Below are positions 744 to 35,508 of a DNA stretch of 64,000 nucleotides, in pieces. The notes beneath the pieces were generated by a model. The model searched no databases. It worked only from the letters and a program-made list of their open reading frames with translations, and had not been told where the DNA came from. Each line of letters opens with the position of its first letter. The stretch's first letter is position 1. The DNA is from Bactericera cockerelli (lineage: Eukaryota > Arthropoda > Insecta > Hemiptera > Triozidae), in the NCBI GenBank assembly GCA_024516035.1, contig CM044957.1:888613-952612 (forward strand), read 5' to 3'. The position numbers and the translations under genes were made by a program.

Positions 744-922
744 TGGTACGACGAGGAGCAGTCGGAGGCGGTGCCTCCCCCCGCCCCCTACAACACGATC
801 ATGACCGAGTTCGACCGACTGATGCTGGTGCGCTGTCTCCGCCTGGACAGGGTGTACCAGAGCATCTGTAACTATGTGGAACACATCATGGGCGTGGAGT
901 TCATCACGCCCTCCTTCATAAG
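744..922 (+). CDS. DNAH10: DNAH10-like exon (1st in window)
   Basis: The acceptor is TTCGTCCCCAG before 744 and the donor AAG|GTGCCG after 922. The exon has 179 nt, entering in phase 0 and leaving with 2 nt of a split Ser codon. It encodes [17 protein letters not shown] through VEFITPSFI, a typical dynein segment ahead of the AAA6 region. The first base follows an AT-rich intron holding SINE fragments. Confidence 0.85.
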
Positions 923-3900
923 GTGCCGCGGACACGTGTGGAATGTCGGAAGGAGTCTCTCGGTTTTTCATAAAGAACAAATGAAAACCCGGCACTTTGC
1001 TGCCATACCTCGTGAGGTCCACTCATACCTCGTCAGGAAAAATGAGTAGCTGCTTTAATGTGAGCAGCGACCAGAGGCGGAATTATAGGCAAAAATAAGA
1101 TATTAGGATAACAAAGTTACGGTAAAGTCCTATAATTCTGCGCTACCCACTAAAATTGTGATATATTAACACAAAGAAACATATTTATTTATTATTATTT
1201 ATTACTTTGTCGCCATAAGTCTTCTCAAAAGTACCTCTCCATGCTAGACTCATCAGTTAGACATCAGTTCGACATAGTTCTCTCTAAATCTTTTAAAGTC
1301 TATGTTTAAATCTATGCTTAATAAAGTTTCATTCGTGCTTTAAAATCGTTAAATTTACTATCAGAATATTAACATTCACTCTTAAAATATTAACAAAACC
1401 TATCAAAATATTAATAAAAACTATCAAAATGTTAACAAAACTATCAAAATATTAATATTTACTTTCAAAATATTAACAAAAACTATCAAAATATTAATAA
1501 AAACTATCAAAATATTAACAAAAACTATCAAAATATTAACATTTACTATCAAAATATTAACATTTACATCAAAAGACAGTGGTAGAAGTGCTGAGTTATT
1601 CCTCCACTGTCTGGTTACCATCGTTCACAATGACGCCACCCTATGATGATGATCAAAATATTGACAATAACTATCAAAATATTAACAATTTACTATAAAG
1701 ATGTAGTGACCTGATCCCTCAGTTCACAGAAAACCCCTTCATTTCTGTCATTGATGGAAAACCCGTTTATTTCTGTCATTGATGGAAAACCCCTTCATTT
1801 CTGTCATTGATATAAAACCCCTTCATTTCTGTCATTGATATAAAACCCCTTTATTTCTGTCATTGATATAAAACCCCTTCATTTCTGTAAATCCCATTCA
1901 TTGTTATAAAACCCCTTCAAACATATGACTGATTTGTGATTATTCCTCTCAGCTACGACGCAATATTCGAGCAGAGCTCATGCACCTCCCCCGTGGTGTT
2001 CATCCTGAGTCCTGGCTCCGACCCCACTGAGGACCTGATGAAGCTGGCGCAGCGCAACGACCAGGCAGGGGACAAGTTCAAGTTCCTGTCCCTCGGCCAG
2101 GGCCAGGAGAAGGTACTAAGATCCCTCCCCCTCCATCCACCCCTGCTGGCATTAGCCTCAATCCCCCTCAGCTAGTCCCTACTAAGATCCCTCCATCCAC
2201 CCCTGCTGGCATTAGCCTCAATCCCCCTCAGCTAGTCCCTACTAAGATCCCTCCATCCACCCCTGCTGGCGTTAGCCTCAATCCCCCTCAGCTAGTCCCT
2301 ACTAAGATCCCTCCATCCACCCCTGCTGGCATTAGCCTCAATTTCCCTCAGCTAGTCCCTACTAAGATCCCTCCATCCACCCCTGCTGGCATTAGCCTCA
2401 ATCCCCCTCAGCTAGTCCCTACTAAGATCCCTCCATCCACCCCTGCTGGCATTAGCCTCAATCCCCCTCAGCTAGTCCCTACTAAGATCCCTCCATCCAC
2501 CCCTGCTGGCATTAGCCTCAATCCCCCTCAGCTAGTCCCTACTAAGATCCCTCCATCCACCCCTGCTGGCATTAGCCTCAATTCCCCTCAGCTAGTCCCT
2601 ACTGAGATCCCTCCATCCACCCCTGCTGGCATTAGCCTCAATCCCCCTCAGCTAGTCCCTACTAAGATCCCTCCATCCACCCCTGCTGGCATTAGCCTCA
2701 ATCCCCCTCAGCTAGTCCCTACTAAGATCCCTCCATCCACCCCTGTTGGGCGATTGAAAGGGGGCATCTGCTGAACTTCAATCCTCCTCAAACTAGTCCC
2801 TACTAAGATCCCTCCATGCACCCCTGCTGGGCGATTGATAGGGGGCACCTGCTGGCATTAGCCTCAATCCCCTCAGCTAGTCCCTATTATTATTATAAAC
2901 TACCGAACTCAGTAGCCAGTAGCTTTATAATAATTATTCAATTCAATTAAAATATTTATTGTGATATTTATACATATAAACATTTTACACAATTTACAAT
3001 AATATTTTTATCTACATAAAAAAAACAGTAACACTAGCTACACCTGCCTAACTTAATATTTATCATAATCATAACACTCTTTAGTGGAAGGTAACAACCA
3101 GGCGAGAGGTTAATGCTTAAAGCATTTTCTACCACCTAACAACCTTCAGAGTCTTATTATTATGTAGTCACAAACTCAAATTAATGAGGAAAAATTTATG
3201 CACTGGGTGGGAGTTAAACCAACGGATCAATACGCCACCTGGATTACCAGACCAGCATGTTAACCACTTGACTACCAGTATACTTATAAAGACTTCATTA
3301 CCAGACTAGAGCCTTAACCACTTGTCTAACAATGCAAAGTAATCATTGGTTATAAATACGCAATTTTCTCACCCAGGCGGCGCTCGGTCTGCTGCACAAG
3401 AGCATCTCCCGTGGCTTCTGGCTCGTGTACCAGAACTGCCACCTGCTCATCTCCTTCATGCGAGAGTTGGAGAAGCAGCTGGAGTCGGCCACCCTCTACC
3501 ATCCCAACTTTCGTCTCTGGCTCACCACGGACCCGACACCTTCGTTTCCCATAGGTGAGTCGGCTCCCATAGGTGAGTCGGTTCCCATAGGTGAGTCGGC
3601 TCCCATAGGTAGGTGAGTCGGTTCCCATAGGTGAGTCGGTTCCCATAGGTGAGTCGGTTCCCATAGGTGAGTCGGTTCCCATAGGTGAGTCGGTTCCCAT
3701 AGGTGAGCCGGTTCCCATAGGTGAGTCGTTTCCCATAGGTGAGTCGGTTCTCATAGGTCAGTCTGTTCCCATAGGTGAGTCGGTTCCCATAGGTGAGTCG
3801 GTTCCCATAGGTGAGTCGGTTCCCATAGGTGTGTCGTTTCCCATAAGTGAGTCGGTTCCCATAGGTGAGTCGTTTTCCATAGGTGAGTTGTTTCCCATTG

Positions 3901-3985
3901 CGGATAAGTTAACAATAGGTGCCACACCCCGAAACAGGTTAGTAACTACCAACTGCATTAACTCGCAATTCATTAATTGCTACAG

Positions 3986-4016
<31 letters not shown>

Positions 4017-4969
4017 GAATTTATAATTTATATAGACAGAGAGAGAGAGGTGAGAGGATTTGGCTTCAATTTAAATAATACTATTTTAAGAGAGCACAAG
4101 AAAAATGTGCTTCTGAACGAGCTAAATTCAAGCGTATTTTTTACAGGAATTATAACCAGGTCGATTCCCTTGCAGGCATTCTCCAGAAATCCCTCAAGGT
4201 AGTGACGGAGCCCCCCAACGGGCTGAAACTGAACATGAAGAACACCTACTTCAAGATGAGGTCAGACCTGCTGGAGAACTGCGAACACCCGAGCTACAAG
4301 CACCTGGTTTACGTGCTGGCGTTTTTCCACGCCGTGGTGCAGGTGAGCAGAACCTGTACCTAATGAATCATACGTGTTTTTTTTTTATTAAAATGTCACT
4401 AAAGTTAAGCAGTCTAGCGAGGTTAGGAGGACTTGGATGGAAAATTTCCACGCCGTGGTGCAGGTGAGTAGAACCTACACCTAATGAATCTTCCGTGTTT
4501 TTTTTTATTAAAATGTCACTAAAGTTAAGCAACGTCTAGCGAGGTTAGGAGGACTTGAATGGAAAATTTCCACGCCATGGTGCAGGTGAGTAGAACCTAC
4601 ACCTAGTGAATCATAGTGTTTTTTTTAATTCAAATGTCACTAAAGATATGTAACGTCCAGCGAGGTTAGTAGGACTTGGATGGAAAGTATAATATTACAG
4701 GAGTGTCCTGCAACATCTTATCCTGGATAATTTAAAAATTTCCTGCTTGCCACTGAAGATGTTATTAAATACAAATAGCAATGATTTTATAGTAAACTAG
4801 CGGGTTACACCCGCCGCTTCGCCAGCCCATCAAACACACACAACGCACACACACACACCCACACCACACACACACACACACCACACACACCACACCACAC
4901 ACACACACCACACACACCACACACACACACGCACACACACACACCACACCACACACACACACCACACCA

Positions 4970-5055
<86 letters not shown>

Positions 5056-5109
5056 ACACACACACCACCACACACACACACACACACACCACACACACAC
5101 ACACCACAC

Positions 5110-5145
<36 letters not shown>

Positions 5146-8100
5146 ACACACACCACACACACACACCACACACACCACACACACCATACACACACACACA
5201 CACACACCACACACACACCACACACACACCACACACACACACACCATACACACACACACACCACACACACACCACACCACACACACACACACAAAATGTC
5301 ATTTAGGTTTGAAAAAAAACCTGAATATTTTTTGTCGCCCATCTATTTTCTGGCCTTCCCCGGCGTAGCTCAAGAATGGCTCATCAGAATTTCGCGATCA
5401 ATATGTCAAATGAAAGCCTAAACCCTTGCCTAAAACTTTCTCGCTCTGAGTTGATAGGTCGTCACTTCAAATTTCGAGAAAAAATGTCATTTAGGTCAAA
5501 AAACGTGAATATTTTACATGTTACCCATCCATTTTTTTACCTTACCCGGCGTAGCTCAAGAACGGCTCATCAGAAATTCGCGATCGATATGTCAATTGAA
5601 AGCTCAAGCCCTTGCCTAAAACTTTCTCGCTTTGAGTTGATAGGTCGTCGCGACAAATTTCGAGAAAAAATGTCATTTATGTCAAAAAACGTGCATTTTT
5701 TTTGCGTCACCCATCCATTTTTATCCTTACTCATTGTAGCTTAACCTCAGGGAGATATAATCTAGCCTAGAAGAATTTCCTGATCCAAGCGGACCTATGT
5801 GCAAAATTTCAGGTTTCTCGGTCAAACGGTGTGGATTTGTATAAAGAACATACATACACACATACATACATACACACATACATACATACACACATACAGA
5901 CAGCTTTCTTTTATAGATATAGATAAGTTCAGAGATTTTTCGTATTCATTTAATTTACTACATTATTTTGTTCCTATTTTATAACTATTTATTGCTAACC
6001 AAAGTTTTTACCTTCCAAATTTTATTATTACACATTTGGAAGGTAAAAAAAGCCATACGATCAATTAAAAAATAAATTTAACGTGATGTTATTTTGCTTA
6101 AACTCACTCTAATGATGATGCACCCGGCAGGAGCGGCGTAAGTACGGCAAGATCGGGTGGAACATCAGCTACGACTACAGCGAGTGTGACTTCATAGTGT
6201 GTGTCCAGATCATCGACACCTACCTGTCTCGTCTGCTGGAGAAGAATGAGGATATCATGAGGATCCCGTGGGAAACTCTCAAGTACCTCATAGGACAGGT
6301 GAGGAAACTCTCAAGTACCTCATAGGACAGGTGAGGAAACTCTCAAGTACCTCATAGGACAGGTGAGGAAACTCTCAAGTACCTCATAGGACAGGTGAGG
6401 AAACTATCAAGTACCTCATAGGACAGGTGAGGAAACTCTCAAGTACCTCATAGGACAGGTGAGGAAACTCTCAAGTATCTCATAGGACAGGTGAGGAAAC
6501 TCTCAAGTACCTCATAGGACAGGTGAGGAAACTCTCAAGTACTACATATTACAGGTGTGCTGGGCCACACCTGGGGTGGAATCCATAGGCGTTTCTGTTA
6601 TATCTCTGTGGACTTGTCTAGGGGCGAAATTAATAGACAAAATCTATAACTTAAGTCATTGCTAAGCGTCGGTTTTCCTTATCTTACACAGTACGCAACA
6701 GATTACTACCCGTCGTGGTATGACCCGTATGACCATGCAGTTGAAAGCGACGTTACAACCAAATTAAAAATACAGATGACACAGGCAGCTGAGATTTTTT
6801 ATAATATTAAGAGTTTTCTATTATATCCGAGTCCATTATATCTAGGTATCAGTTTTCAATTGTCAATGATATTACTAGACCTAAATTATTTTCCCCTTAC
6901 AGGTGATGTATGGAGGCAGGGTGATCGATAGCTACGACAGGAGAGTTGTGCAGACCTACATGGATGAATACCTGGGTAAGACTTTAACCTGTACCCGAGG
7001 TTAAAACTATTTATAAGCATAATAGCGAACATTAGTATTGTTGTTTTCAATTGTAATTTTTGTAAACAATGTTATGTTCTTATTACAACAACAACAACAA
7101 AAAATATATTCGCAATCCAGAAAGGGAACAGTGCGAGTATTGAGAGAATTTTTGCTCCATCTACATAGTTCCCTCGGTGAAGTCATCTAGTTCCCTGTAT
7201 GTGCCCACCAGCAGTTTGGGTTATTTGAGTGTATGAAAAGTGATTCGTACGTGTTAGTTAAAGCAACCAAATCTCTTCAGTCCTATGGTTCACAACAGGT
7301 CCACTCTATTCCTCAGGTGACTTCACTCTGTGTTAGTAGCAACCAAATCTCTTCAGTCCTATGGTTCACAACATGTCCACTCTATTCCTCAGGTGACTTC
7401 ACTCTGTGTTAGTGGAAGCAACCAAATCTCTTCAGTCCTATGGTTCACAACATGTCCTCTCTATTCCTCAGGTGACTTCACGCTGGATGACTTCCAGTTC
7501 TACCCAGGCTACCGCATTCCACCCCCGGGGAGCAAACAGTTCTACATCGACTACATAGAGGAGAATCTGTCCTCTCAGCAGACGCCAGAACCTTTCGGTC
7601 TTCACCTCAACGCAGAGATAGGTGGGTCAATATTTCAACATGGCTGCAGCCGAGTAACGGCTGGAGGCATTATTATTGTTATTATAGATATGACCTCTAC
7701 AGTTGTTGTCAAGGTGAAAGTTAAGGGATAGTGTCCACTAAGATTAACAAAACCTCTTTCATAATTCGAGCCCTAGTCTCATAGGTATTATCTGATATTA
7801 TAAAATGATTCGTTTGTGTTTACGTTGAGTCGTGTAAAACTCGAGAACCACAACTTCCTATCCTATACAACACTCTGTACATCCTGCAAGTATGAGACTA
7901 AAGAGTCCCTTTACTCTCAGAGCCTAAACAAAGTCTCATTTATTGGTGACAGGCACAGGTAAAATATTTACTAACAACTTTGTTTAAAGAAAAGAAAAAA
8001 AGTGTGTCTCCAATAATTATTCCAGGCTACTATACCCAAGCAGCCGAGGACATCTACTCGAATCTACTCAATATTCAGCCCCAGTCAGCCAGCAGCGCGG

Positions 8101-11100
8101 GAGGTATATCTCGAGAACAGTATGTTGATAAGGTGAGTGTGGTTTATATTGTTTGTCGCAGGTTTGAAACCCAGCCAGGTCATAAGAAGATATGTCCATT
8201 TTAAATTTCGACTACATAAAAATACGCCTTGAGCTTATTGCTAGAATAATGGGACTCATTAGTCCTAATTGGGCAGTATTAATAAGGCGATATTATTATT
8301 ATTATTTGGCTGGAGGACGTTAAACAGAGAGAAGACCAGTGTCTCTTTAGAGAGTCTAGACTGTCTAGAGGGTTAAAACAGACAGTGGACTAGCTAACCA
8401 TAAGAAGCCAGGCTAGCTTGAAGTTTCCCAAGTGTTTATGGCTTAAGAAAAAAAAAACCCCCCAAGTTGCTTGCAGTGATCGCACATAGACATATGTGGC
8501 CAACTTTTCAATTTAAGTTGGCTGGAGACCATTACTCCCCCCAGGTGTGGACTTCCTAGCTAAGTTACCGCCAGAGTTAAGCTGGTTACAACAAGAACTT
8601 ACTAACTTATGATGTTGTTTCAGCTCTGTGTGGACATCCTAGCTAAGCTACCACAACAACAACTTACTAACTTATGATGTTGTTTCAGCTGTGTGTGGAC
8701 ATCCTAGCTAAGCTACCACAACAACAACTTACTAACTTATGATGTTGTTTCAGCTCTGTGTGGACATCCTAGCTAAGGTACCACAACAACAACTTACTAA
8801 CTTATGATTTTGTTTCAGCTGTGTGTGGACATCCTAGCTAAGCTACCACAACAACAATTTACTAACTTATGATTTTGTTTTAGCTGTGTGTGGATATCCT
8901 AGCTAAGCTACCACAACAACAACTTACTAACTTATGATTTTGTTTCAGCTGTGTGTGGACATCCTAGCTAAGCTACCACAACAACAACTTACTAACTTAT
9001 GATTTTGTTTCAGCTGTGTGTGGATATCCTAGCTAAGCTACCACAACAACAACTTACTAACTTATGATTTTGTTTCAGCTGTGTGTGGACATCCTAGCTA
9101 AGCTACCACAACAACAACTTACTAACTTATGATTTTGTTTCAGCTGTGTGTGGACATCCTAGCTAAGCTACCACAACAACAACTTACTAACTTATGATTT
9201 TGTTTCAGCTGTGTGTGGATATCCTAGCTAAGCTACCACAACAACAACTTACTAACTTATGATTTTGTTTCAGCTGTGTGTGGACATCCTAGCTAAGCTA
9301 CCGCCGGAGTTCGACGTCCCGCGTATCAAGCGGGAGAAGGGCCGCCTGCCCAGCCCCACCCTGGCTGTGTTGTACCAGGAGCTGGATAGAATCAACCTGC
9401 TGCTCAACACTATGGCACTCAGTCTGGCCCTCCTGAGGAAGGTAAGACCTCCCGGGTGTTATAACCCCACCCTGGCTGTGTTGTACCAGGAGCTGGACAG
9501 AATCAACCTGCTGCTCAACACTATGGCACTCAGTCTGGCCCTCCTGAGGAAGGTAAGACCTCCCGGGTGTTATAACCCCACCCTGGCTGTGTTGTACCAG
9601 GAGCTGGACAGAATCAACCTGCTCCTCAACACTATGGCACTCAGCCTGGCTCTCCTGAGGAAGGTAAGACCCTCCCGGGTGTTATAACCCCACCTTTCTC
9701 CTGGACGTTAAAACCAAATAGAATCAATGGACATGACAGGAGCCTAGACATTGGATCTGGGTATCCATATAATCCTCTCATCACCGTGATCAAGCAAAAC
9801 GCTAGTTTTGCAACGCCAAGAAAAACAAAACGAGCGTGTATACTTACGCTAAACCTAGTTCGTATGTATTTTCTTTTGTAATTTTGACTTTCTTAGATAA
9901 AACATTTTATTTTTATTTTCTATATTTTTATTTTCTGTGCCTGTCTCATGGACACGGAATTATTATTACTACCCTGCTTCAGACGACTGTCATGCATTTC
10001 AAAGTTCTGTTATCTCTGTCTTGGCAGGGCCTGGCGGGTCAGATCGGCATGGACGCCCTGCTGGACGCCACAGCCGCTAACCTCTACAACGGGCAGCTGC
10101 CCGACCCCTGGCGCAAGCTCGCCCCCGCCACCTGTAAGAAGCTGGGCGCCTGGCTGCAGCATCTGCTGCGACGCAACGCGCAGTACGTGGCCTGGGTGAG
10201 TACTTTTTTTCTGTCTATCTAGAACCTTTAAGGGGCTAGCGCTCCGCCCCGCCAAGTCAAAAAGTAAGAAGAGCGTACCAAGAGATATTATGCGCCACAG
10301 CACAAAATGTCGATTTCACGCCCTTGTACCTGATTTAGTTTTGCTTTCTGGCTCAAAATAATAATAATAATAATAATAAAGGACTTTAATAAAAAGTAAC
10401 CACCAGGCGAGGTTAATGCTCAAATTTTCTACCACCTAACCCTCAGAGTCTTATTATTTTGTGGTAAATAAATGAAGAAAAATTCATGCATCGGTTAGGA
10501 TTCGAACGAACACACAGTGGAGCAGAATCTATTCTTAGGCGGGAAAACAGAAAAAAAATAATGTCATCATTTCAAAATAATACACTCCAGGTCTGTTCAC
10601 AATTATTATTATTCTGTTCACATTATTATTATTATTGTTTCAGATCCAGTCCGGAGACCCGACGGTGATGTGGCTGTCCGGCCTCCACACCCCCGAGTCC
10701 TACCTGACGGCCCTGGTGCAGACTGCCTGCAGGAAGATGGACTGGGCCCTGGACAGGTGCACCTTCCGCACCCGCGTCACCCAGTACACCGAGCCCTCCC
10801 AGGTGGAGGAGAGGCCCGAGCTGGTGAGTAGCCACGCCCCCACCTATACCTGAGCACCTTGCAGTGAGTAGCCACGCCCCCACCTATACCTGAGCACCTT
10901 GCAGTGAGTAGCCACGCCCCCCACTATACCTGAGCTCCTTGCAGTGAGTAGCCCCGCCCCCAACTATACCTGAGCTCCTTGCAGTGAGTAGCCCCGCCCC
11001 CAACTATACCTGAGCACCTTACAGTGAGTAGCCCCGTCCCCCACTATATCTGAGCACCTTGCAGTGAGTAGCCACGCCCCCCACTATACCTGAGCACCTT

Positions 11101-11897
11101 GCAGTGAGTAGCCACGCCCCCAACTATACCTGAGCTCCTTGCAGTGAGTAGCCACGCCCCCAACTATACCTGAGCTCCTTGCAGTGAGTAGCCACGCCCC
11201 CACCTATACCTGAGCACCTTGCAGTGAGTAGCCACGCCCCCAACTATACCTGAGCACCTTGCAGTGAGTAGCCACGCCCCCAACTATACCATTCTTTTTT
11301 TAACTTCGCTTTCAACTGTATGGTCATATCACGACGAACGTTTCACCCTCCGACACTCACAAACCAGCTACTCAAAATAAAATCACCTGAGTGGGGCCGT
11401 AAGTGGTCAGCACCACCAGGCTTCGAATTTGAATAGTTACACATCCAAGTCCTAGCATCGCTGGATGTTGCTTAACTTTAGTGACAGAACAAGAACTGCT
11501 GTATTCAGCGAGAGCCATCGAAGCTGGCTATGTCTACAATATGGTCTGTTTTAAACTTCAAAAGCAGAAGGTGCTAAACGTAATACTACTTTGTCGGCAG
11601 GGCTGCTACGTGACGGGACTCTACTTGGAGGGCGCCCACTGGGACCTGACCACGGGCGCCTTGGCCCCGCCCCTGCCCCGACTCCTCCTTGAGCCCCTCC
11701 CCCTGCTCGCGGTGACGCCCCTCCAGCTCCACCGCGTCTCCAACCAGAACTCCCTCCGCACACCCCTGTACGTGACGTCTCAGAGACGCAATGCCATGGG
11801 CGTGGGGTGTGTGAGCGAGGCGGATCTGAACATGGGCGCCAGCCACCCCTCCCACTGGATCCTGCGGGGCGTCTGTCTCACGCTCAACGCGGACTGA
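744..11897 (+). CDS. DNAH10: Axonemal dynein heavy chain (DNAH10-like), C-terminal 12 exons, 5' end outside window
   Basis: Motor subunit of an axonemal (inner-arm type) dynein, acting in cilia and flagella. Coding exons: 744-922, 1953-2112, 3377-3554, 4176-4342, 6131-6298, 6903-6975, 7472-7621, 8026-8132, 9274-9441, 10028-10195, 10644-10823 and 11601-11897. Every junction is GT-AG, phases match at every joint, and the lengths sum to 1995 nt, which is 664 codons plus TGA. The product covers the dynein C-terminal part (AAA5/AAA6 and C-terminal domain): [84 protein letters not shown] and the end CLTLNAD. These wordings fit DNAH10 better than the other heavy chains I can recall; the subfamily call is from memory. 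Eight exon borders carry tandem arrays. In insects such genes are usually expressed in testis and sensory cilia (family knowledge). Confidence 0.86.
1364..1695. repeat. AT-rich intronic minisatellite (about 21-bp unit)
   Basis: Degenerate repeats of AACTATCAAAATATTAACA, about 14 copies, broken near 1574-1650. This array is interior to the intron and does not touch an exon. Confidence 0.8.
1722..1920. repeat. Intronic minisatellite (about 29-bp unit)
   Basis: About seven copies of AAAACCCCTTCATTTCTGTC plus ATTGATGG/ATA, ending about 30 bp before the acceptor of the next dynein exon. No exon bases are copied. Confidence 0.8.
1953..2112 (+). CDS. DNAH10: DNAH10-like exon 2
   Basis: The acceptor is TTCCTCTCAG and the donor GAGAAG|GTACTAAG. 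The exon has 160 nt and encodes the conserved stretch [20 protein letters not shown] followed by [12 protein letters not shown] and LGQGQEK. A 60-bp tandem array starts at the second base of the following intron. Confidence 0.87.
2113..2880. repeat. 60-bp tandem array starting at a dynein donor
   Basis: About 12 nearly identical 60-bp units containing ACTAAGATCCCTCCATCCAC and CCCCTCAGCTAGTCC. The array begins right after exon base 2112. Units contain an acceptor-like CCCCTCAG, but the GT of the donor is present only in the first unit, where GTACTAAG is intact. Confidence 0.92.
3066..3295 (-). repeat. tRNA-derived SINE, family A
   Basis: Body GGAAGGTAACNACCAGGCGAG, then the reverse of a tRNA-like head: GCACTGG on the minus strand pairs with CCAGTGC, and the B box is GGTTCGAATCC in better copies. 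Other copies: 10383-10515, 14593-14700, 17146-17350, 22890-22990, 23838-24180, 24805-25010, 29883-30040 and 30810-31010. Confidence 0.7.
3377..3554 (+). CDS. DNAH10: DNAH10-like exon 3
   Basis: The acceptor is CTCACCCAG and the donor CCCATAG|GTGAGTCG. The exon encodes [20 protein letters not shown] and [16 protein letters not shown]. The last 7 bases plus the donor are the unit of an 18-bp array that fills the start of the intron. Confidence 0.88.
3546..3895. repeat. 18-bp array multiplying a dynein splice donor
   Basis: About 19 units of CCCATAGGTGAGTCGGTT. Each unit holds the last exon bases CCCATAG and the donor GTGAGT. Only the first is joined to the whole exon ending at 3554. Minor variants include GTGTGT and AGTGAGT. 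Confidence 0.93.
4176..4342 (+). CDS. DNAH10: DNAH10-like exon 4
   Basis: The acceptor is CCCTTGCAG and the donor GTGCAG|GTGAGCAG. It encodes [20 protein letters not shown] and ends LAFFHAVVQ. The exon tail and donor recur twice more downstream, at about 4450 and 4570. Confidence 0.88.
4330..4690. repeat. About 120-bp triplication of exon tail, donor and a 5S-like fragment
   Basis: TTTCCACGCCGTGGTGCAG plus GTGAGTAGAACC occurs at about 4324, 4445 and 4568. Each copy is followed by a T run and CACTAAAGTTAAGCAACGTC, which resembles part of 5S rRNA or a 5S-derived SINE. Confidence 0.85.
4800..5925 (+). mobile_element. Interspersed element with CA-rich core, copy 1
   Basis: Starts with GCGGGTTACACCCGCCGCTT, runs through a long CA/CCACACA microsatellite (about 4830-5293), then about 450 bp with an internal near-duplication built around CGGCGTAGCTCAAGAA, and ends in a CATACA-type repeat plus CAGACAGCTTTCTTTTATAG. 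A second copy lies at 13395-14480. It encodes nothing recognisable. Class unknown; the tail is like those of some non-autonomous LINE-mobilised elements. Confidence 0.7.
4830..5293. repeat. CA / CCACACA microsatellite
   Basis: Long imperfect (CA)n mixed with CCACACACA. Open frames across it are pure Cys/Val or His/Thr and are not genes. Confidence 0.95.
6131..6298 (+). CDS. DNAH10: DNAH10-like exon 5
   Basis: The acceptor is CACCCGGCAG and the donor GGACAG|GTGAGG. The exon is exactly 56 codons and encodes [20 protein letters not shown] through [11 protein letters not shown]. The last 29 bases of the exon plus the donor are copied about nine times into the intron. Confidence 0.87.
6268..6555. 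repeat. 32-bp array multiplying a dynein splice donor
   Basis: About nine copies of GAAACTCTCAAGTACCTCAT plus AGGACAGGTGAG. Each is the exon tail (ETLKYLIGQ) with its GTGAG donor. The copy joined to the exon is the first. Confidence 0.93.
6575..6715 (-). repeat. Degenerate MITE (TTA family)
   Basis: Contains GGGGCGAAATTAATAGACAA and CTTAAGTCATTGCTAAGCG, as in the intact copies at 23923-24051 and 30546-30682. This copy is rearranged. Confidence 0.5.
6903..6975 (+). CDS. DNAH10: DNAH10-like exon 6
   Basis: A short 73-nt exon with acceptor CCCCTTACAG and donor CCTGG|GTAAGAC. It encodes [14 protein letters not shown] and YMDEYLG, a conserved dynein block. Confidence 0.85.
7255..7480. repeat. 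About 78-bp triplication of a dynein acceptor
   Basis: Three copies of CAACCAAATCTCTTCAGTCC followed by CTATTCCTCAGGTGACTTCA. Each contains the acceptor CCTCAG and the first exon bases GTGACTTCAC. The third copy leads into the exon at 7472. Confidence 0.9.
7472..7621 (+). CDS. DNAH10: DNAH10-like exon 7
   Basis: The acceptor is TATTCCTCAG and the donor GATAG|GTGGGTC. It encodes [20 protein letters not shown] and [11 protein letters not shown]. Two imperfect copies of the acceptor plus the exon start lie upstream; only the third runs into the full exon. Confidence 0.86.
8026..8132 (+). CDS. DNAH10: DNAH10-like exon 8
   Basis: The acceptor is TTATTCCAG and the donor GATAAG|GTGAGTG. The exon has 107 nt and encodes [19 protein letters not shown] and [11 protein letters not shown], which fits the dynein segment after the AEIGYYT motif. 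Confidence 0.85.
8257..8560. repeat. SINE B fragment plus interspersed GGACGTTAAAC repeat
   Basis: 8257-8306 matches the reverse of the SINE B 5' part (GGGCAGTATTAATAAGGCGA). 8310-8560 shares GGACGTTAAACAG, AGACCAGTGTCT and GTTGGCTGGAGACCAT with 31980-32130. No gene is seen here. Confidence 0.55.
8600..9290. repeat. 65-bp array multiplying a dynein acceptor
   Basis: About 11 copies of a unit that contains TTTTGTTTCAG, then the exon start CTGTGTGTGGACATCCTAGC, then CCACAACAACAACTTACTAA. Every unit has a polypyrimidine tract, a branch-point-like CTAAC or CTAAG, and AG (one copy reads TTTTAG). The last copy is the real exon start at 9274. Confidence 0.94.
9274..9441 (+). CDS. DNAH10: DNAH10-like exon 9
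   Basis: The acceptor is TTTTGTTTCAG and the donor AGGAAG|GTAAGACC. It has 56 codons and encodes [19 protein letters not shown] and [20 protein letters not shown]. Both ends are amplified: about 11 acceptor copies upstream with 65-bp units, and two further donor copies downstream with roughly 111-bp units. Confidence 0.87.
9356..9690. repeat. About 111-bp in-frame triplication of exon end and donor
   Basis: CCCACCCTGGCTGTGTTGTA through GAGGAAGGTAAGACC occurs three times, each copy with its own GTAAG donor. Reading through the first two units is open and would add 37 residues per copy; the unit encodes [20 protein letters not shown]. Confidence 0.92.
9700..9795 (+). repeat. SINE E 3' fragment
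   Basis: GGACGTTAAAACCAAATAGA and GACATTGGATCTGGG match 38613-38690 and 61673-61760, the 3' half of the tRNA-headed repeat in the histone spacers. Confidence 0.7.
10028..10195 (+). CDS. DNAH10: DNAH10-like exon 10
   Basis: The acceptor is CTTGGCAG and the donor GCCTGG|GTGAGT. It has 56 codons and encodes [20 protein letters not shown] and PDPWRKLAP, the GEVGMS-like region of dynein. It is GC-rich against AT-rich introns and has no border array. Confidence 0.86.
10644..10823 (+). CDS. DNAH10: DNAH10-like exon 11
   Basis: The acceptor is TTGTTTCAG and the donor GAGCTG|GTGAGTAG. It has 60 codons and encodes [20 protein letters not shown], highly diagnostic for axonemal dynein. The donor is followed by a 40-bp array. 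Confidence 0.88.
10816..11290. repeat. 40-bp array after a dynein donor
   Basis: About 12 units of GTGAGTAGCCACGCCCCCAC plus CTATACCTGAGCACCTTGCA. Each unit holds a donor (GTGAGT) preceded by GCA, so AG/GT-like junctions repeat. The first donor follows exon base 10823. Confidence 0.92.
11294..11535 (-). repeat. 5S rRNA-derived SINE, full reverse copy
   Basis: On the minus strand the head reads TCTGTCACTAAAGTTAAGCA, like the 5S rRNA core (CCGATCACCGAAGTTAAGCA). The body has GGTCATATCACG and ends in an A-rich tail. Located in the last dynein intron. Confidence 0.65.
11601..11897 (+). CDS. DNAH10: DNAH10-like terminal coding exon
   Basis: The acceptor is TTGTCGGCAG, with stop TGA at 11895-11897. 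It encodes [36 protein letters not shown] and the C-terminus GVCLTLNAD, the standard end of an axonemal dynein. An insert rich in Pro and Leu ([15 protein letters not shown]) replaces the usual short linker. Confidence 0.9.
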   Translation, partial: GCYVTGLYLEGAHWDLTTGALAPPLPRLLLEPLPLLAVTPLQLHRVSNQNSLRTPLYVTSQRRNAMGVGCVSEADLNMGASHPSHWILRGVCLTLNAD

Positions 11898-12400: not shown

Positions 12401-13395
12401 CCTTATACTACCTACTTATTTTCTGGTACCTAAAAAAGTCAAAGAGTTATCCATGGAGGAGGAATTCATACAAACCTAGGGCTAGTTAATTTTGAAATTA
12501 ACTTCCTCTTATCACTGCACAACAACAAAGTAAAATCTTTATTTTACAATCGACATTTCTTTAAACGTTTGCCCAAAGACACGATTTACATAACAATCAA
12601 ACAATTTAAATAAATTGAATGATTTACATCCACTAAAAATCTATTGAGATGTTTAAAAAAAACAAACAAATAAACAAAAACAATTGAACATATTTTATAG
12701 TTTCATTTCTTGATTTTTGTCTTTTTTCCCCTTTCTTTTCTTGTTCTTTGTTTTAACTTAATCCACTATTTGGAAGTTTTTTTTAAATTTATTTATTTAT
12801 TTAATAACAGGATAACATAGGTATACAAAGGTATTTTTCCTAAGCTAAACCTTTCAGTAAAAAACTGAAGAGAATGTTCTGTAAATGTTTTGTTATGTAT
12901 AAAAAAATTTGCCTACCTACTTATTTTCTAAATTGTCGTCAACCCTGTTTACGGTGATTGTGTCTTTTGGTTGGATAAAGCTGGGACCTTATTTGTTTAA
13001 CACTTTCCAGTGAGAAAATTGTAATTTTATTATGATTACCTAGACATGAGTTTTGTTAATGCATGGCATTCACATTAATTATGCACATATTCATTTCACT
13101 TTATGTCCATTTAATTTTCATGCACATAATTAATAAAGACTTTTTCTTAGCCAAGTTAGTATTGTGAATAAATTTTCTTGAAAACGTTTTTTTTTCACTC
13201 TAGAAACAAAGGAAAATCGATTCAACAATGTGTGATTTTTTCTACTATTAATTTAAAGCAAATGCAAAAACCTTTGACACCAGGTTATCCAGCGTAAAAA
13301 ACAATGCACTGCCATTGGCAATAATCCCGCCCTTTAGTTAGGACATATGTTTCTATATATTTTTCTATTCTTTTTTATTTTTATTGTATATTAAT
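12400..13395. other. Intergenic, AT-rich, no gene seen
   Basis: Separates the dynein gene (+) from the second CA element. A LINE-tail-like repeat occurs at 13315-13400 (GGCAATAATCCCGCCCTTTA). Nothing else is recognisable. Confidence 0.6.
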
Positions 13396-13462
13396 AGCGG
13401 GTTACACCCGCCGCTTCGCCAGCCCATCAAACACACACAACGCACACGCACACACACCCACC

Positions 13463-13518
<56 letters not shown>

Positions 13519-13809
13519 ACACACACACCACACACACACACACACACCACACCACACCCACACACACCACACACAAACACACCACACCACACACACAAAG
13601 CACACACCACACACCCACAACACACCCACACACACACAAACCACACCACACACACACCAAACAACACACCACACACACACACACACACAACACACACCAC
13701 ACACACACCACACACACATCACACACACACACACACACCACACACACACACACACACCACACCACACACCACCACACACACACACACACCACACCACACA
13801 CACACACAC

Positions 13810-13845
<36 letters not shown>

Positions 13846-14480
13846 ACACACCACCACACACACACCCACACCACCAAAAATGTCATTTAGGTTTGAAAAA
13901 AAACCTGAATATTTTTTGTCGCCCATCTATTTTCTGGTCTTCCCCGGCGTAGCTCAAGAATGGCTCATCAGAATTTCGCGATCAATATGTCAAATGAAAG
14001 CCTAAACCCTTGCCTAAAACTTTCTCGCTCTGAGTTGATAGGTCGTCACTTCAAATTTCGAGAAAAAATGTCATTTAGGTCAAAAAACGTGAATATTTTA
14101 CATGTTACCCATCCATTTTTTTACCTTACCCGGCGTAGCTCAAGAACGGCTCATCAGAAATTCGCGATCGATATGTCAATTGAAAGCTCGAACCCTTGCC
14201 TAAAACTTTCTCGCTTTGAGTTGATAGGTCGTCGCGACAAATTTCGAGAAAAAATGTCATTTATGTCAAAAAACGTGAATTTTTTTTGCGTCACCCATCC
14301 ATTTTTATCCTTACTCATTGTAGCTTAACCTCAGGGAGATATAATCTAGCCTAGAAGAATTTCCTGATCCAAAGGGACCTATGTGCAAAATTTCAGGTTT
14401 CTCGGTCAAACGGTGTGGATTTGTATAAAGAACATACACACATACATACAGACAGCTTTCTTTTATAGATATAGATATAT
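13395..14480 (+). mobile_element. Interspersed element with CA-rich core, copy 2
   Basis: Nearly the same as 4800-5925 outside the microsatellite: same GCGGGTTACACCCGCC start, same body, same CAGACAGCTTTCTTTTATAG end. The CA tract (13430-13875) has a different structure. Confidence 0.75.
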
Positions 14481-19100: not shown

Positions 19101-22100
19101 AATATACTATTGAACTGAATTGAAATAACAACAGTGGGTACCTGCTCTGCCACATGACAATGGCGTCCTCCTCCACATCCCTCATGTCTACCTGGGTGTG
19201 TAAGTTCTCACCTGCTCTGCCACATGACAATGGCGTCCTCCTCCACATCCCTCATGTCTACCTGGGTGTGTAAGTTCTCACCTGCTCTGCCACATCACAA
19301 TGGCGTCCTCCTCCACATCCCTCATGTCTACCTGCGTGTGTAAGTTCTCACCTGCTCTGCCACATCACAATGGCGTCCTCCTCCACATCCCTCATGTCTA
19401 CCTGGGTGTGTAAGTTCTCACCTGCTCTGCCACATGACAATGGCGTCCTCCTCCACATCCCTCATGTCTACCTGGGTGTGTAAGTTCTCACCTGCTCTGC
19501 CACATCACAATGGCGTCCTCCTCCACATCCCTCATGTCTACCTGGGTGTGTAAGTTCTCACCTGCTCTGCCACATGACAATGGCGTCCTCCTCCACATCC
19601 CTCATGTCTACCTGCGTGTGTAAGTTCTCACCTGCTCTGCCACATCACAATGGCGTCCTCCTCCACATCCCTCATGTCTACCTGGGTGTGTAAGTTCTCA
19701 CCTGCTCTGCCACATCACAATGGCGTCCTCCTCCACATCCCTCATGTCTACCTGCGTGTGTAAGTTCTCACCTGCTCTGCCACATCACAATGGCGTCCTC
19801 CTCCACATCCCTCATGTCTACCTGCGTGTGTAAGTTCTCACCTGCTCTGCCACATCACAATGGCGTCCTCCTCCACATCCCTCATGTCTACCTGCGTGTG
19901 TAAGTTCTCACCTGCTCTGCCACATCACAATGGCGTCCTCCTCCACATCCCTCATGTCTACCTGCGTGTGTAAGTTCTCCTGGCTTGCTCTTAATAGCGG
20001 TTTCCCCCACAACAGGAAGCCTGCTTGTAGTTTATGCTTGCCTCACTGGGTCCTTCCCGTTTGGTACTTGGTGTGTAAGTCCTCCGTGGCGGCCGTCGTA
20101 ACTAGCGGTCCCAGGTGGGGAACAAAGGGCTTGTATAAGGTTGTCGGAAGTGGTAGGTACTTGTGGTGCAGCCTGTGTCCAGCACCCAGTCGTACACAGA
20201 GCCCTGGGGGAATCAAAGGGTTAAGGGTTGTGGGGAAGTGGTAGGTACTTGTGGTGCAGCCTGTAGTCCAGCACCCAGTCGTACACAGAGCCCTGGGGGA
20301 ATCAAAGGGTTAAGGGTTGGTGGGAAGTGTGGTAGGTACTTGTGGTGCAGCTCTGGGTCCAGCACCCAGTCGTACACAGAGCCCTGGGGGAAATCAAAGG
20401 GTTAAGGGTTGTGTAGGAAGTAGTAGGTAGGTACTTGTGGTGCAGTCTGTGGTCCAGCACCCAGTCGTACACAGAGCCCTGGGGGAAATCAAAGGGTTAA
20501 GGGTTGTGTGGAAGTAGTAGGTAGGTACTTGTGGTGCAGCCTGTGGTCCAGCACCCAGTCGTACACAGAGCCCTGGGGGAATCAAAGGGTTAAGGGTTGT
20601 GAGAAGTATGGTAGGTACTGGTAGCTGTGGTCAGCACCCATGTGTACAGTGGGAATAAGAGTAGTGTAATACTTGTGGTAGCGTGTCCAGCACCAGTCGT
20701 ACACAGAGCCCTGGGGGGAATCAAAGGGTTAAGGGTTGGGGGAAAGTGGTAGGTACTTGTGGTGCAGCCTCTGGTCCAGCACCCAGTCGTACACAGAGCC
20801 CTGGGGGGAATCAAAGGGTTAAGGGTTGTGTAGAAGTAGTAGGTAGGTACTTGTGGTGCAGTCTGTGGTCCAGCACCCAGTCGTACACAGAGCCCTGGGG
20901 GAATCAAAGGGTTAAGGGTTGTGTAGAAGTAGTAGGTAGGTACTTGTGGTGCAGTCTGTGGTCCAGCACCCAGTCGTACACAGAGCCCTGGGGGAATCAA
21001 AGGGTTAAGGGTTGTGTAGAAGTAGTAGGTAGGTACTTGTGGTGCAGTCTGTGGTCCAGCACCCAGTCGTACACAGAGCCCTGGGGGAATCAAAGGGTTA
21101 AGGGTTGTGTAGAAGTAGTAGGTAGGTACTTGTGGTGCAGCCTGTGGTCCAGCACCCAGTCGTACACAGAGCCCTGGGGGAATCAAAGGGTTAAGGGTTG
21201 TGGGGAAGTGGTAGGTACTTGTGGTGCAGCCTGTGGTCCAGCACCCAGTCGTACACAGAGCCCTGGGGGAAATCAAAGGGTTAAGGGTTGTGTAGAAGTA
21301 GTAGGTAGGTACTTGTGGTGCAGCCTGTGGTCCAGCACCCAGTCGTACACAGAGCCCTGGGGGAAATCAAAGGGTTAAGGGTTGTGTAGAAGTAGTAGGT
21401 AGGTACTTGTGGTGCAGCCTGTGGTCCAGCACCTAGTCGTACACAGAGCCCTGGGGGGAATCAAAGGGTTAAGGGTTGTGAGGAGGTGGTAGGTAGTTGG
21501 GTGGAAGTGATACTTGTGATGCAACCTGTGGAACACAGAGCCCTGGGGGGAATCAAAGAGTTATGGGTTGGGTGGAAGTGGGAATCAAAGGGTTAAAGGT
21601 TGGGTGGAAGTGATACTTGTGGTGCAACCTGTGTTACACAGAGCCCTGGGGGGAATCAAAGGGTTAAGAGTTGGGGAAAAAAGAGGTTCAGAAAGAAAAG
21701 TGGGGATCGACAAATACTTACCGACAGGCTCAGCGTCTGGAAGGTGACGAGTAGAAGCCTGAGGGGCCAGGCGCCCGTGTAGGCTCTGTGCGCCCACAGC
21801 CTGTGCGCCCCTATTGTGTTCCCCAGGGTCGACATCATGACTAGCAGCAAGCCTGGGGACATGGAATAGAAGGTTCAACCTACATAACACGTTACTGGAT
21901 CCACACAACACGCGGCTGAGCCTCACCGATCTCACGGGAAGTGGTATTCATAGTTTTGAATCAAAACCATTTTTTTTTTTCGTAGCCATAAAACAGGAGC
22001 TACTTTAGACGCTTGTGATCGGTGTTGTAGCCTGCCCAATTGCCCATTCCCTAGTATTCAACCCCTCTGATGAGTGAGCAGTGACACAATACTTCCCAAT

Positions 22101-25683: not shown

Positions 25684-25853
25684 TTAACCCTCGTCCACAC
25701 TGATCTCACACTCCTCCTCCTCCTCCACACTCAGGCTGGAGCTCTGATTGGCCGCCACGGAGCGGAAGTGCTGGTGGGCGGGGCCTACAGTCTTGAGGCG
25801 GGGCCTCCCTGGGCCTCGCTTGGCGGCCGCGCGCCTGGCTCTCCCGTCCGGGT
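25684..25853 (-). CDS. INO80: INO80 terminal coding exon
   Basis: The acceptor is ATGTTCCCAG and the stop TAA at 25686-25684. It encodes [12 protein letters not shown], another AT-hook, and the acidic end [15 protein letters not shown]. Confidence 0.75.
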
Positions 25854-28800: not shown

Positions 28801-31800
28801 CCGCCCTTTAGTTAGGACATATGTATATACATATTTTGTTTATTTTTTTTCTTGTTCATGTTATTAATATTGTCAATATTTATATTCAATTTTTACTGTT
28901 TATTTGTCTTATACTGTATAATGTTCTACTAATAAAGAGTTTCTAAAAAAATAAAAACATATTCTCAACTCACTCTAGCCCCCAGCCCCAGCCTCCTCTT
29001 CCTCTCCCTATCCTTCTCCTTGTTCCCCTCCAGCCTCTGCTCCTCCAGCTGCTTCTTCTCCAGCTGCTTCTGCTGGTCTGGAACATAGATGTTTAATAAA
29101 AAAAAATATGAAAAAAGTTAAAATCGGAGCAAAAGAATATTTATTTATTTTACAATCTCCCGAATAAACAATCTCCCGAAAAGTACAACAGTACTTCATG
29201 GAGCTGTACTGGAATTGAAATGTATATGAAAATAAATAAAGATACTTATTATTATTACAAAAACGAACACAATACTTCCGATTCCTAATATTAGTAATTA
29301 TATCGGGTGTACCGATTCATTTCACAATACACGTCACAAAAACAAGAGACCCATACTATACTGGGTCTCTTAGTGTGACAAGTCATTGTAAGACATGCAG
29401 TTTCACTTTAATATTTCTTTTCCTATGTTCTATATTTTATAAGTAACTATGTAATGTAAAAGAAATGTACAATAAAACACATTATTATTATTTATCTATG
29501 AGCAGAGCCCATTTTACATTAAAACACGATATAAAAAGTAATGCAAATATTAATTTTAAATTAAAATTTAAAGAAAATGATAAAAAATATCTAAATTCAC
29601 AATTACTAACAGTTAGGGAAAAAAACTAGTTGTTCTGAATTCTCATCAAACGGTTGAGAGGAGAAAAGAAAGTACAATTGGTAGCATACTGTCTAACATA
29701 AAAGGTTTTAGAACCTCTCAGTAGACGACGACAATCAAATTGAACCAACCCAAGAATCTTGGTGCAATTAGAAATTATTCTGAAGTAAAAGCACAATAAT
29801 AGGTAATAATAATCGATCTAAAATTCTAAATGTTGGATGAAATGTTTATTTTCCTTCCTTTCCATAATCTTTTTTCTTATAATTATAATAACACCTTAGT
29901 GGAAGGTAACCACCAGGCGAGGTTAATGCTCAAAGCATTTTCTACCACCTAAACTTCAGAGTCTTATTTTTATGAGTTCACAAACTCAAAATAAATGAGG
30001 AAAAAATCATGCACTGGGTGAGATTTGAACCGACGGATTTCTTCTTCTTTTGGTATAAATCCCAGAAAGTTATGTTCACCTGTTTATTTTCAATAAAAGA
30101 AAAAGTTATCATAATTGTGTTAATCACTTTCGTGGTATCACAACTACTCAAACTCGCTTTACTAAATCTACGCTGAAACCGAGACCTGAACCACCGACCT
30201 CCAGGTTACAAGTCCACCGCCTTATCGCTCAAGCTACTGAGGTCGGGTTATTTTTCAATAATAAAACATAACTAAACCACTTACACTTGAGCTCCAGCTC
30301 CTCGTCATCCAGCAGAAGGGAGACCACCTCCTTGGCCTTGAGAGTGTCTGGCTTGAAGTCACCTCCACTGATTACCTATAATATTATGGATAAGTATAAG
30401 TATAAGACCACCTCCTTGGCCTTGAGAGTGTCTGGCTTGAAGTCACCTCCGCTGATCACCTATAATTTTATAATTAATACTTCAATTTTAAATATTTCTG
30501 TAATTTTAAATATTCCTTGTATGTATATGTATAATGTATACAGTCTTAGGGCGGAATTAATAGACAACATCAATAACTTAAGTCGTTGGTAAGTGTCGGT
30601 ATTCCCTATCTTACACAGTACGCAATCCTTGACTTAGCGCCACAGAGGTATTACAAAAACATCTATTAATTCCGCCCTTAATGTAAATAAAACTTGATCG
30701 AATTTGTATAATAATTAGCCTCACAAAGCCTAGGTAGGGCCGAAAATGTCAGCCTCAAGTGTTCGGAGGGAACAGAATTGTCTCTGGAACACGGGCATGA
30801 GACACAATAATAATAATAGTCTTTAGTGGAAGGTAAGGTTCATGCTCAAAGCATTTTCTACCACCCAACCCTCAGAGTCTTATTATTATGTGGTCACAAA
30901 CTCAAATTAATGAGGAAAAATTCGTGCACTGGGGGGATTCGAACCAACGCATCCCTACGCTACCTGGATTACCAGACTAGCGCGTTAACCACTTGACTAC
31001 CAGTGCACAGAACCGCACTCACCATGCGCTGGATCTCACTCTTCTCCCGGGCCCGCTGCAGGATCCTCTCCTCTATGGTGTCCTGGCAGATGAGCCTGTA
31101 CACAGTCACCTGTTTGGTCTGGCCCAGGCGGTGGGCGCGGTCCATGGCCTGCTGGTCCACCGTGGGGTTCCAGTCGCTGTCGTAGAAGATCACCTGGCGG
31201 GCAATACATTAGGGGTGGAATAATCAGTATCAGTATAAACAGAAAAGTGGGAAGTTGTACTAGATGTATATGAATATCAGAACATACCTGGACAAGTGGA
31301 CAGCTGTTTCGAGCTTATTTGTTCTCATCAGCAGGTAATAGTTCTGAATATTTATGTATCAACTAACCTCTCTATTTTAATCAATAGACGTTTTTGTAAT
31401 ACCTTTGTGGCGCTAAGTCACGGATTGCGTACTGTGTAAGACAGGGAAATCCGACGCTTAGCAATAATAATAATATCGCCTATTTATACTGCCCGATTAA
31501 CACTATTAAGTCCCATTATTCCAGCAGTAAGCCCAATAGGTATTATTAAGTGATAAAAATCCCAAATGGGAGGATAACATGTCATGTCCCGGTTGGATTT
31601 CGAACACGCGACCTCTGGATTACCAGACCGCCGCCTTTACCACTGAGCTACCGGCACAGACATGACTTGAGCAATGACTTGAGCTATAGAATTTGTCTAT
31701 TAATTTCGCGCTAGAATTCAGTTCGAATCATGTTTTTTTTTTTTTGCTAAGAACATAACATCATTTAGAGGGTGTTACCCCTAAATGACAATACTAATGT

Positions 31801-32355
31801 TCATTAAACATGCCCTAACTCTATAATGCACTTTAAATCTGACTATTTACTGATGCTGATGCAACCTCTCAACACACTCCAGCCGGGACAGATCACTGGA
31901 AAGGCCAAGGTGATCATACTCCAGGTGGAATTTGTTGCAAATTTTTGACTCTCTCAATGTTATAAAGATAACAAAAATAAAAATGAGTAGCTGTTTGTAT
32001 GGATAGCGATCAGTGTCTGGATAGCCTGGGGGACGTTAAACAGGGAGGAGACCAGTGTCTGGTCTGGAGCCAACTTGAAATATAGTTGGCTGGAGACCAT
32101 CATTCCTCCCTCCAGCTGTAGCCCAGCTACCTATAACAACAACAACATAGCGACCATCCGCGACATTACGAGAGGGCGTATTTACCCATTCAAAAAATAA
32201 CCATCAACTAAAATTAATTGTTGATTAGATGAAATCAACAATTGTATATATGACGGATGATAGATACTCGTAATGAACTTACAGTGTCAGCAGCGGTGAG
32301 GTTGATTCCCAGGCCCCCAGCTCTTGTACTCAGGAGGAACACGAAGATTTCAGCC
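25684..32355 (-). CDS. INO80: INO80 chromatin-remodelling ATPase, C-terminal seven exons
   Basis: Catalytic SNF2-family subunit of the INO80 complex, which slides nucleosomes in the nucleus. Coding exons in gene order: 32355-32283, 31193-31023, 30375-30285, 29077-28974, 28685-28532, 26588-26490 and 25853-25684. All are GT-AG with matching phases, giving 286 codons to TAA. The first two carry helicase C-terminal motifs V and [17 protein letters not shown] and [20 protein letters not shown] followed by VTVYRLI. The third carries the INO80-type [20 protein letters not shown]. Then come a charged coiled-coil-like segment, an acidic/serine part, basic AT-hook-like GRRGRP and GPGRPRLK, and an acidic C-terminus. 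The 5' part should lie right of 32.4 kb, but only repeats and a gap follow. Confidence 0.87.
25942..26292. mobile_element. Pogo-like MITE
   Basis: Ends CAGTAGAACTCCGTTATTAT and ATAATAACGGGGTTCTACTG are inverted repeats of about 24 bp, with internal repeats of CCCCGATATTATGAAC. This is the typical form of pogo/Tigger-derived non-autonomous elements. No transposase frame. Confidence 0.75.
26490..26588 (-). CDS. INO80: INO80 exon, basic AT-hook-like
   Basis: The acceptor is CTATTTCAG and the donor CCTTGG|GTGAGT. It encodes [20 protein letters not shown] with an AT-hook-like GRRGRP. The call rests on phase and composition. Confidence 0.72.
26604..26798 (-). repeat. SINE B
   Basis: Starts ATAATAATATCGCCTTATTT and ends in the minus-strand tRNA-like head CTGTCCCAGTAGTTAAGTGG. 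It lies in an INO80 intron. Confidence 0.65.
27020..28260 (-). mobile_element. Truncated non-LTR retrotransposon, 3' part of RT ORF
   Basis: Minus-strand frame 28166-27579 (195 aa) has RT thumb-type wording such as [31 protein letters not shown] and the tail typical of CR1/jockey-type LINEs. It is 5'-truncated and followed by a 3' UTR to about 27020. A second weaker piece of the same ORF end lies at 29640-29790. Confidence 0.72.
28532..28685 (-). CDS. INO80: INO80 exon, acidic/serine segment
   Basis: The acceptor is TTTCTCAG and the donor CTCCA|GTGAGT. It encodes [20 protein letters not shown] and [20 protein letters not shown]. Low-complexity and disordered; placed by phase. Confidence 0.75.
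28974..29077 (-). CDS. INO80: INO80 exon, charged helix
   Basis: The acceptor is TGTTCCAG and the donor GCTAGA|GTGAGT. It encodes [20 protein letters not shown] then [14 protein letters not shown], a highly charged likely coiled coil. Confidence 0.78.
30285..30375 (-). CDS. INO80: INO80 exon following helicase domain
   Basis: The acceptor is ATTATAG and the donor AAGT|GTAAG. It encodes [20 protein letters not shown] and [11 protein letters not shown] truncated copy of its acceptor and first half lies just upstream in the gene (30407-30461). Confidence 0.87.
30395..30470 (-). repeat. Partial duplicate of INO80 exon start and acceptor
   Basis: Repeats the intron end, AG and the first about 55 exon bases (GTGATCAGCGGAGGTGACTT onward), then runs into TTATACTTATACTTATCC. 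Splicing to this acceptor would give a truncated exon with no good donor. Confidence 0.85.
30546..30682. mobile_element. MITE (TTA family), second intact copy
   Basis: Flanked by TTA, with ends GGGCGGAATTAATAGAC and ATTAATTCCGCCC. It is the inverse of the copy at 23923 and lies in an INO80 intron. Confidence 0.78.
31023..31193 (-). CDS. INO80: INO80 exon, helicase motif VI
   Basis: The acceptor is GCCCGCCAG and the donor CGCATG|GTGAGT. It has 57 codons beginning [20 protein letters not shown] and containing the RAHRLGQ arginine finger motif. Confidence 0.9.
31379..31712. mobile_element. MITE (TTA family) interrupted by SINE B
   Basis: AATAGACGTTTTTGTAATAC at 31382 and GTCTATTAATTTCGCGC at about 31697 are the two MITE ends. 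A SINE B copy (31466-31662) sits between them, followed by the partial repeat GACTTGAGCAATGACTTGAG. Confidence 0.68.
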
Positions 32356-34286: not shown

Positions 34287-34326
34287 GTTTTAAGTGACGC
34301 GTAATAGAGCGGCGCGGAGAGAGAAC

Positions 34327-35473: not shown

Positions 35474-35508
35474 AAAAACACTTCTTCCCTCTACCCCCTT
35501 TTTAAAAC

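Follow-up and report, generated by a model that had tools for sequence, protein, structure and literature searches.

Exon-border arrays in the window

The 64,000-nucleotide stretch of the Bactericera cockerelli genome analysed here (GenBank assembly GCA_024516035.1, contig CM044957.1, positions 888,613 to 952,612 of the forward strand; hereafter the window) carries three genes in which splice borders lie inside local direct repeats, mostly tandem arrays, whose unit contains the splice site and adjoining exon bases. The plus strand at 744..11897 holds the last 12 exons of the dynein gene DNAH10 (744-922, 1953-2112, 3377-3554, 4176-4342, 6131-6298, 6903-6975, 7472-7621, 8026-8132, 9274-9441, 10028-10195, 10644-10823 and 11601-11897). 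Joining only the border copies attached to complete exons yields an intact open frame of 664 codons, with no insertion at array-bearing borders, and the 664-residue product aligns end to end with DNAH10 9fqr_K2 (E 7.5e-254); its nearest relative, at 80%, is a Diaphorina citri protein. A relative of acyl-CoA desaturase is encoded on the minus strand, as is the third gene, INO80. With the mouse enzyme aligned, the desaturase relative has PQYHY (window 15834-16121) at the place where the third histidine box, HNYHH, would be expected.

Arrays were located with Tandem Repeats Finder (TRF) and by independent self-alignment of the first 34 kb of the window (direct repeats no more than 1.5 kb apart, with E up to 1e-3); the self-alignment cluster count omits arrays located chiefly in dispersed repeats (for example, 4834-5902 and 13431-14314). 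Of the 16 local-repeat clusters in these 34 kb, ten extend across a splice border into the exon, two lie directly against a donor and four are interior (1342-1704, 1730-1919, 17331-17469 and 27315-27482, by self-alignment); a sequence-only reading had placed only two or three arrays away from exons. The same reading had listed 11 borders lying in arrays with exon bases. This holds for ten, the exception being dynein donor 10823, where a 40-bp array (10824..11290) starts exactly at the first intron base after exon 10644-10823 and its unit contains no exon base. The other donor-abutting array, absent from that list, has a 60-bp unit, also without exon bases, and spans 2114..2889, beginning at the second intron base past exon 1953-2112 (both arrays by TRF and self-alignment).

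TRF, self-alignment and the listing of individual copies established exon-including direct repeats at dynein donors 3554, 4342, 6298 and 9441, dynein acceptors 7472 and 9274, desaturase acceptors 17676 and 20203, and desaturase donor 19912. On the plus strand, the donor arrays have units of 18 bp (about 19 copies, 3542..3921, exon end 3554), 121 bp (3 copies, 4324..4686, exon end 4342), 32 bp (9 copies, 6271..6557, exon end 6298) and 111 bp (3 copies with 88 exon bases per unit, 9354..9694, exon end 9441), and the acceptor arrays units of 76-79 bp (3 copies, 7251..7485, exon start 7472) and 65 bp (11 copies, 8545..9311, exon start 9274). The last of these has one extra outer copy, which is more diverged and contains more exon sequence. 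On the minus strand, the desaturase gene has a 39-bp acceptor array, part of which recurs later (17661..18753, exon 17491-17676), a 70-bp donor array of about 12 copies (19140..19979, exon end 19912) and an acceptor array with a unit of about 93 bp (20110..21680, exon start 20203). In the window, the exon lying between 20203 and 19912 has a scrambled sequence with a broken frame, whereas the examined stretch of the other haplotype (see below) reads through, so this place is affected by assembly noise or allelic damage. At the INO80 acceptor 30375, also on the minus strand, self-alignment confirmed a direct repeat with exon bases but not an array: 30321..30471 contains two copies of the acceptor of exon 30286-30375, spaced 84 bp with other sequence between.

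The INO80 pair apart, the units are tandem and head to tail, with lengths in the range usual for minisatellites (about 10 to more than 100 bp); lengths that are multiples of 3 and lengths that are not both occur. Across the border arrays, each unit includes between about 9 and 108 exon bases, so that no fixed breakpoint motif is apparent, and this candidate was rejected. Each border array in the window touches one intron end only, the other border of that intron lying outside the array. As had been proposed, no mobile family accounts for them: the array stretches match nothing else in the window beyond a distance of 2.5 kb (E 1e-6, 40 bases), except for short stretches inside the 17331-17469 and 17661-18753 clusters. 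Introners or other mobile families were rejected, since the border-array stretches, save those short ones inside 17661-18753, are not among the dispersed repeats.

Copy number in a probable second haplotype

The dynein-to-desaturase region recurs in inverted orientation at C3:2555500-2605499, about 1.7 Mb away on the same contig; INO80 exons were not found in the fetched part of this second copy. Because a kinesin search found several genes paired on one chromosome, the second copy is most likely an uncollapsed haplotype, a young paralogue being the less likely alternative, and the assembly probably keeps both haplotypes of many regions. An N run at C3:883613-888613, just upstream of the window, occupies the place where the other haplotype has further DNAH10 exons.

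Between the two copies, the 12 dynein exons differ at 36 nucleotides and at 0 amino acids (dN 0, dS 0.081), with canonical borders in both. The arrays beside these exons are very different. The 18-bp donor array at 3554 has 19.6 copies in the window versus 58.7 in the other haplotype, the 32-bp array at 6298 has 9 versus 60, the 121-bp array at 4342 has 3 versus 2, and the 111-bp array at 9441 has 3 versus about 7; at the acceptors, the 76-79-bp array at 7472 has 3 versus 4 and the 65-bp array at 9274 has 11 versus 1. Upstream in DNAH10, a 53-bp donor array comprises 5 copies in one haplotype and is single-copy in the other. If the second copy of the region is indeed a haplotype, these are alleles differing in copy number, that is, variable-number tandem repeats (VNTRs). 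At acceptor 9274, the same longer outer copy is present in both haplotypes and expansion is seen in one only, a comparison that shows a seed of an array. Over the 12 dynein exons, the two haplotypes specify an identical protein with canonical splice sites despite such different arrays, which fits the earlier suggestion that border duplications are simply tolerated.

Occurrence beyond the window

A genome-wide occurrence had also been suggested. Arrays at borders were indeed found beyond the window, in a small sample, although none straddles a border at two kinesin loci. Fourteen random 10-kb stretches, 137,553 bp in total, contain 25 arrays with a period of at least 12 and a score of at least 100, which cover 7.1% of bases. 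Two of these stretches contain Pfam-confirmed genes, and both genes have border arrays: a class V aminotransferase, aligned to solved relatives, has donor arrays at three of eight exons, and an Ig/kinase receptor has one donor and one acceptor array among four exons. The acceptor edge of the receptor is uncertain by 14 bases (exon start 1141 or 1155); at 1155 the array stops short and the count falls by one. Further upstream DNAH10 exons outside the window have seven border arrays, and in one donor array there (C3:874514 onward) the intron part begins with TTAGG-type repeats, TTAGG being the usual insect telomere motif. The two kinesin loci, chosen for their compact exon lists, yielded no border-straddling array; one array begins 8 bases past a donor. 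Taking all genes together, 20 of 94 internal borders have their last exon base within a duplication (10/42 in the window, 10/52 outside it). Tandem repeats also lie inside predicted coding exons of two fetched loci (L025 7678-8013; L029, reversed, 9096-9269), and arrays may form within exons too in this genome.

Border enrichment against chance

Each array was represented by the footprint of its seed unit, since expansion after seeding does no more than make the intron longer, and in the collapsed null, arrays were reduced to one unit and bases matching elsewhere in the fetched sequence were removed. Across all loci, 22 of 38 arrays straddle a border. Random placement of units predicts 7.0, the collapsed null 14.9 (P 0.007), and a null that takes each array's own collapsed intron as given 17.8 (P 0.09). 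The corresponding expectations for the window, where 10 of 16 straddle, are 1.9, 5.2 (P 0.009) and 6.1 (P 0.027). Outside the window, 12 of 22 compare with 9.7 (collapsed, P 0.18) or 11.7 (own intron, P 0.54) when all spacings are included. Restricted to spacings of at most 250 bp, a cut that was chosen after seeing the data, drops five wider-spaced duplications, none of them straddling, and treats introns as equal by approximation, the counts are 22/33 versus 10.7 expected (P 2e-5) overall and 12/17 versus 5.5 (P 0.0007) outside the window.

In uncollapsed coordinates the picture reverses: borders are less covered by local duplications (20/94, 0.21) than positions in non-dispersed intron 100-300 bp away (0.39-0.43). 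This comparison goes against an enrichment at borders; base coverage is inflated by expanded array interiors and is therefore given beside the collapsed tests. Hidden transposons would weaken every version of the test; if they made up about 40% of the remaining intron, the signal would be lost (P 0.05 at x0.6, 34-array set). Arrays within one gene are not fully independent, so that all P values are rough.

Earlier versions gave stronger results: in the window alone, collapsed and including intergenic sequence over the whole 34 kb, 3.0 straddling arrays were expected (P 7e-5), and in the 34-array set 18 straddled versus 8.9 expected (P 1e-4). The excess weakened because the final count uses gene spans only, takes upstream DNAH10 from the gap-free haplotype (haplotype 2, whose arrays replace the haplotype-1 upstream arrays of the 34-array set) and adds new DNAH10 exons. 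In it, two merged clusters were split by hand (13294-13650 is guessed), exon 700-882 was set by approximate edges, and the 53-bp donor array was counted as straddling though expanded in haplotype 1 only. Random stretches in which no gene was confirmed were omitted, four of them being L022, L025 and L027 (predicted peptides without a Pfam match) and L026 (not submitted); including these four in the 34-array set, in an approximate form of the test, gives 22/45 versus 12.4 expected (P 2e-4). The within-exon duplication of L029 was not counted, and kinesin locus L036, fetched for a visible triple exon match, is in none of the counts.

The enrichment is weaker than claimed from sequence alone; in the window, straddling arrays still exceed the collapsed expectation. 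A special proneness of exon edges, raised at the same time, is not demonstrated: the border share lies near the unit-length prediction once introns are reduced to single-copy, non-dispersed sequence. We conclude that unit length set against short unique introns explains most of the border pattern and leaves a residual excess of up to about twofold, at most, unexplained; any enrichment at borders would be modest.

Variation among array copies

Copy variation was analysed in 23 array rows, in which some borders are represented by both haplotypes. Of the extra copies, 247 in all, 241 retain GT or AG, and 200 equal or exceed the score of the exon-joined site under a small matrix derived from the window. 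Variants of the splice dinucleotide number 2, against 10.0 expected; random pairs of adjacent columns give 9.2 (P 0.006). This scarcity is weaker (P 0.03) when a single haplotype is taken together with the other loci. AG|GT stands at the unit junction at 10 of 12 donors and 3 of 7 acceptors (site strings, one row per border).

The exon-derived part of the extra copies varies in a codon-like way, with observed/expected ratios of 0.57 at codon position 2, 0.82 at position 1 and 1.16 at position 3, compared with 1.22 in the intron part. The share of position 3 remains high, at 0.53, among units whose length is not divisible by 3 (P 0.005), which makes it unlikely that translation of the copies is the cause; the simplest account is that they are renewed from the exon copy under selection.

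Other features of the assembly

A dispersed element marked by a long AC-rich tract and a repeated tail occurs twice, at window 4834-5902 and 13431-14454. Histone genes occupy window 34300-41300 and 56170-60900, with H2A, H3 and H1 in both groups by the open reading frame (ORF) list, H2B near 41 kb and H4 near 56.2 kb; the first group adjoins an N run at 33909-34008, and its frames are broken. Within 42200-54000, ORFs of the long-terminal-repeat (LTR) retroelement type (43900-51600) lie between matching repeats at 43901 and 51503 and are flanked by ORFs of the long interspersed nuclear element (LINE) type, as if one element had inserted into another (ORF list and TRF only). Elsewhere, five myosin matches to nearly the same profile stretch fall within 8 kb (C11:3719023-3726888); these are possibly alternative exons of muscle myosin, as known from insects.

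Origin and maintenance of the border arrays

Border-straddling arrays are a real and striking feature of gene anatomy in this genome. Their best reading, which we favour with some confidence, is that they are neutral minisatellites tolerated in a repeat-rich genome. Short tandem duplications that happen to straddle an exon border would seed intronic minisatellites, and such a duplication would be harmless because the exon-joined copy carries a complete border and is presumably used for splicing, the extra copies leaving with the intron. Copy number would then change quickly, perhaps by slippage or unequal exchange, as the length differences between haplotypes suggest, while purifying selection would hold the exon-joined copy fixed and the array would, to judge from the codon-like variation, be renewed from it. 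Borders would be hit often mainly because unique intron is short relative to the unit, in a genome with arrays in about 7% of sampled bases. The rise of the expected border share towards the observed one as introns collapse supports this reading, as do the intact DNAH10 frame obtained from exon-joined copies, the conserved dynein beside divergent arrays in two haplotypes, and the outer copy at 9274 that is common to both haplotypes, only one of which has the expansion.

Several results weigh against it. Geometry alone does not give the excess in the window under the collapsed null, nor that at spacings of at most 250 bp. With respect to renewal, silent change in the exon copy itself can give part of the position-3 excess, and a newest-at-exon polarity was not seen, outer copies being more diverged in only 8 of 17 arrays (three of which only abut a donor, and some of which are haplotype pairs).

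Two related readings we consider unlikely. In the first, and slightly the better of them, exon borders are mutational hotspots for tandem duplication, for example through transcription-linked breaks or the sharp change in GC content at exon edges. The window excess, the short-spacing excess outside the window, and the two further arrays that begin at the first and second intron base would all be expected; the all-spacings counts outside the window, the lower coverage of borders in uncollapsed coordinates, and the ease with which hidden transposons would erase the signal speak against it. In the second, arrays would arise preferentially at borders or be retained there by selection: duplications of up to about 250 bp would straddle borders about twice as often as expected from unit length and unique intron space, the selected exon copy would serve as a standing template that keeps its array alive, and the extra sites would retain splice function.

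It seems improbable that the extra splice sites are functional and maintained by selection, whether to buffer or tune splicing or as dual-specific AG|GT sites that are spliced out step by step. The retention of the dinucleotide, the scores of most copies and the scarcity of dinucleotide variants would follow from such a function, and AGGT sites can play both roles in human cells (PMC10809524). However, constraint tracks codon position in copies that are presumably untranslated and can therefore stem from the exon copy, the scarcity falls to its weaker level when one haplotype is used, and haplotypes carry copy numbers as far apart as 11 and 1 or 9 and 60. Creation or inflation of the arrays by a noisy long-read assembly is very improbable, even with the scrambled desaturase edge that is open in the other haplotype, the N gaps and the likely uncollapsed haplotypes, since point changes distinguish the copies, arrays occur in both haplotypes at most of these dynein borders, and the dynein frame is intact in both. 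Least probable of all is that tandem duplication of AGGT exon segments made these introns: many junctions read AG|GT, but the window border arrays reach only one intron end, so that the two ends of an intron do not both lie in copies.

Implications and comparison with known systems

Natural versions of a single exon border in this genome have anywhere from 1 to about 60 nearly identical tandem 5' or 3' splice sites, and the arrays leave dozens of look-alike sites whose use is testable. They allow direct tests of how one splice site is picked by the spliceosome when several are equivalent, of the level of splicing noise that can be tolerated, and of whether an exon copy under selection protects the array next to it against decay. 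They also call for caution in annotation: array copies resemble exons to gene finders, several having been called by the simple exon finder used here, and splice-aware aligners can err between repeats (PMC10632439).

Among the matches listed in a search of open-licence literature, which is weak evidence, no description was found of arrays built on existing borders across a genome. Four known systems are nevertheless close in one respect or another. Intronic minisatellites and VNTRs share the short tandem units and the strong copy-number differences between haplotypes, but here a splice site and exon bases form part of the unit, and coding selection acts on one copy. Minisatellite expansion within genes is also seen in human duplicated genes altered by internal tandem repeats, which the text consulted does not describe as anchored on splice borders (PMC2812944). 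In polyubiquitin UBC, tandem dual-specific splice sites likewise sit in array units carrying AG|GT (PMC10809524); its units are coding ubiquitin monomers, whereas the copies described here are intronic and many would break the frame if retained. Intron gain by tandem genomic duplication at AGGT (PMC3443670; in Drosophila, PMC2891723) also involves duplication across a splice-like AG|GT junction, but in B. cockerelli it is an existing border that is copied, with the array at one intron end and no new intron.

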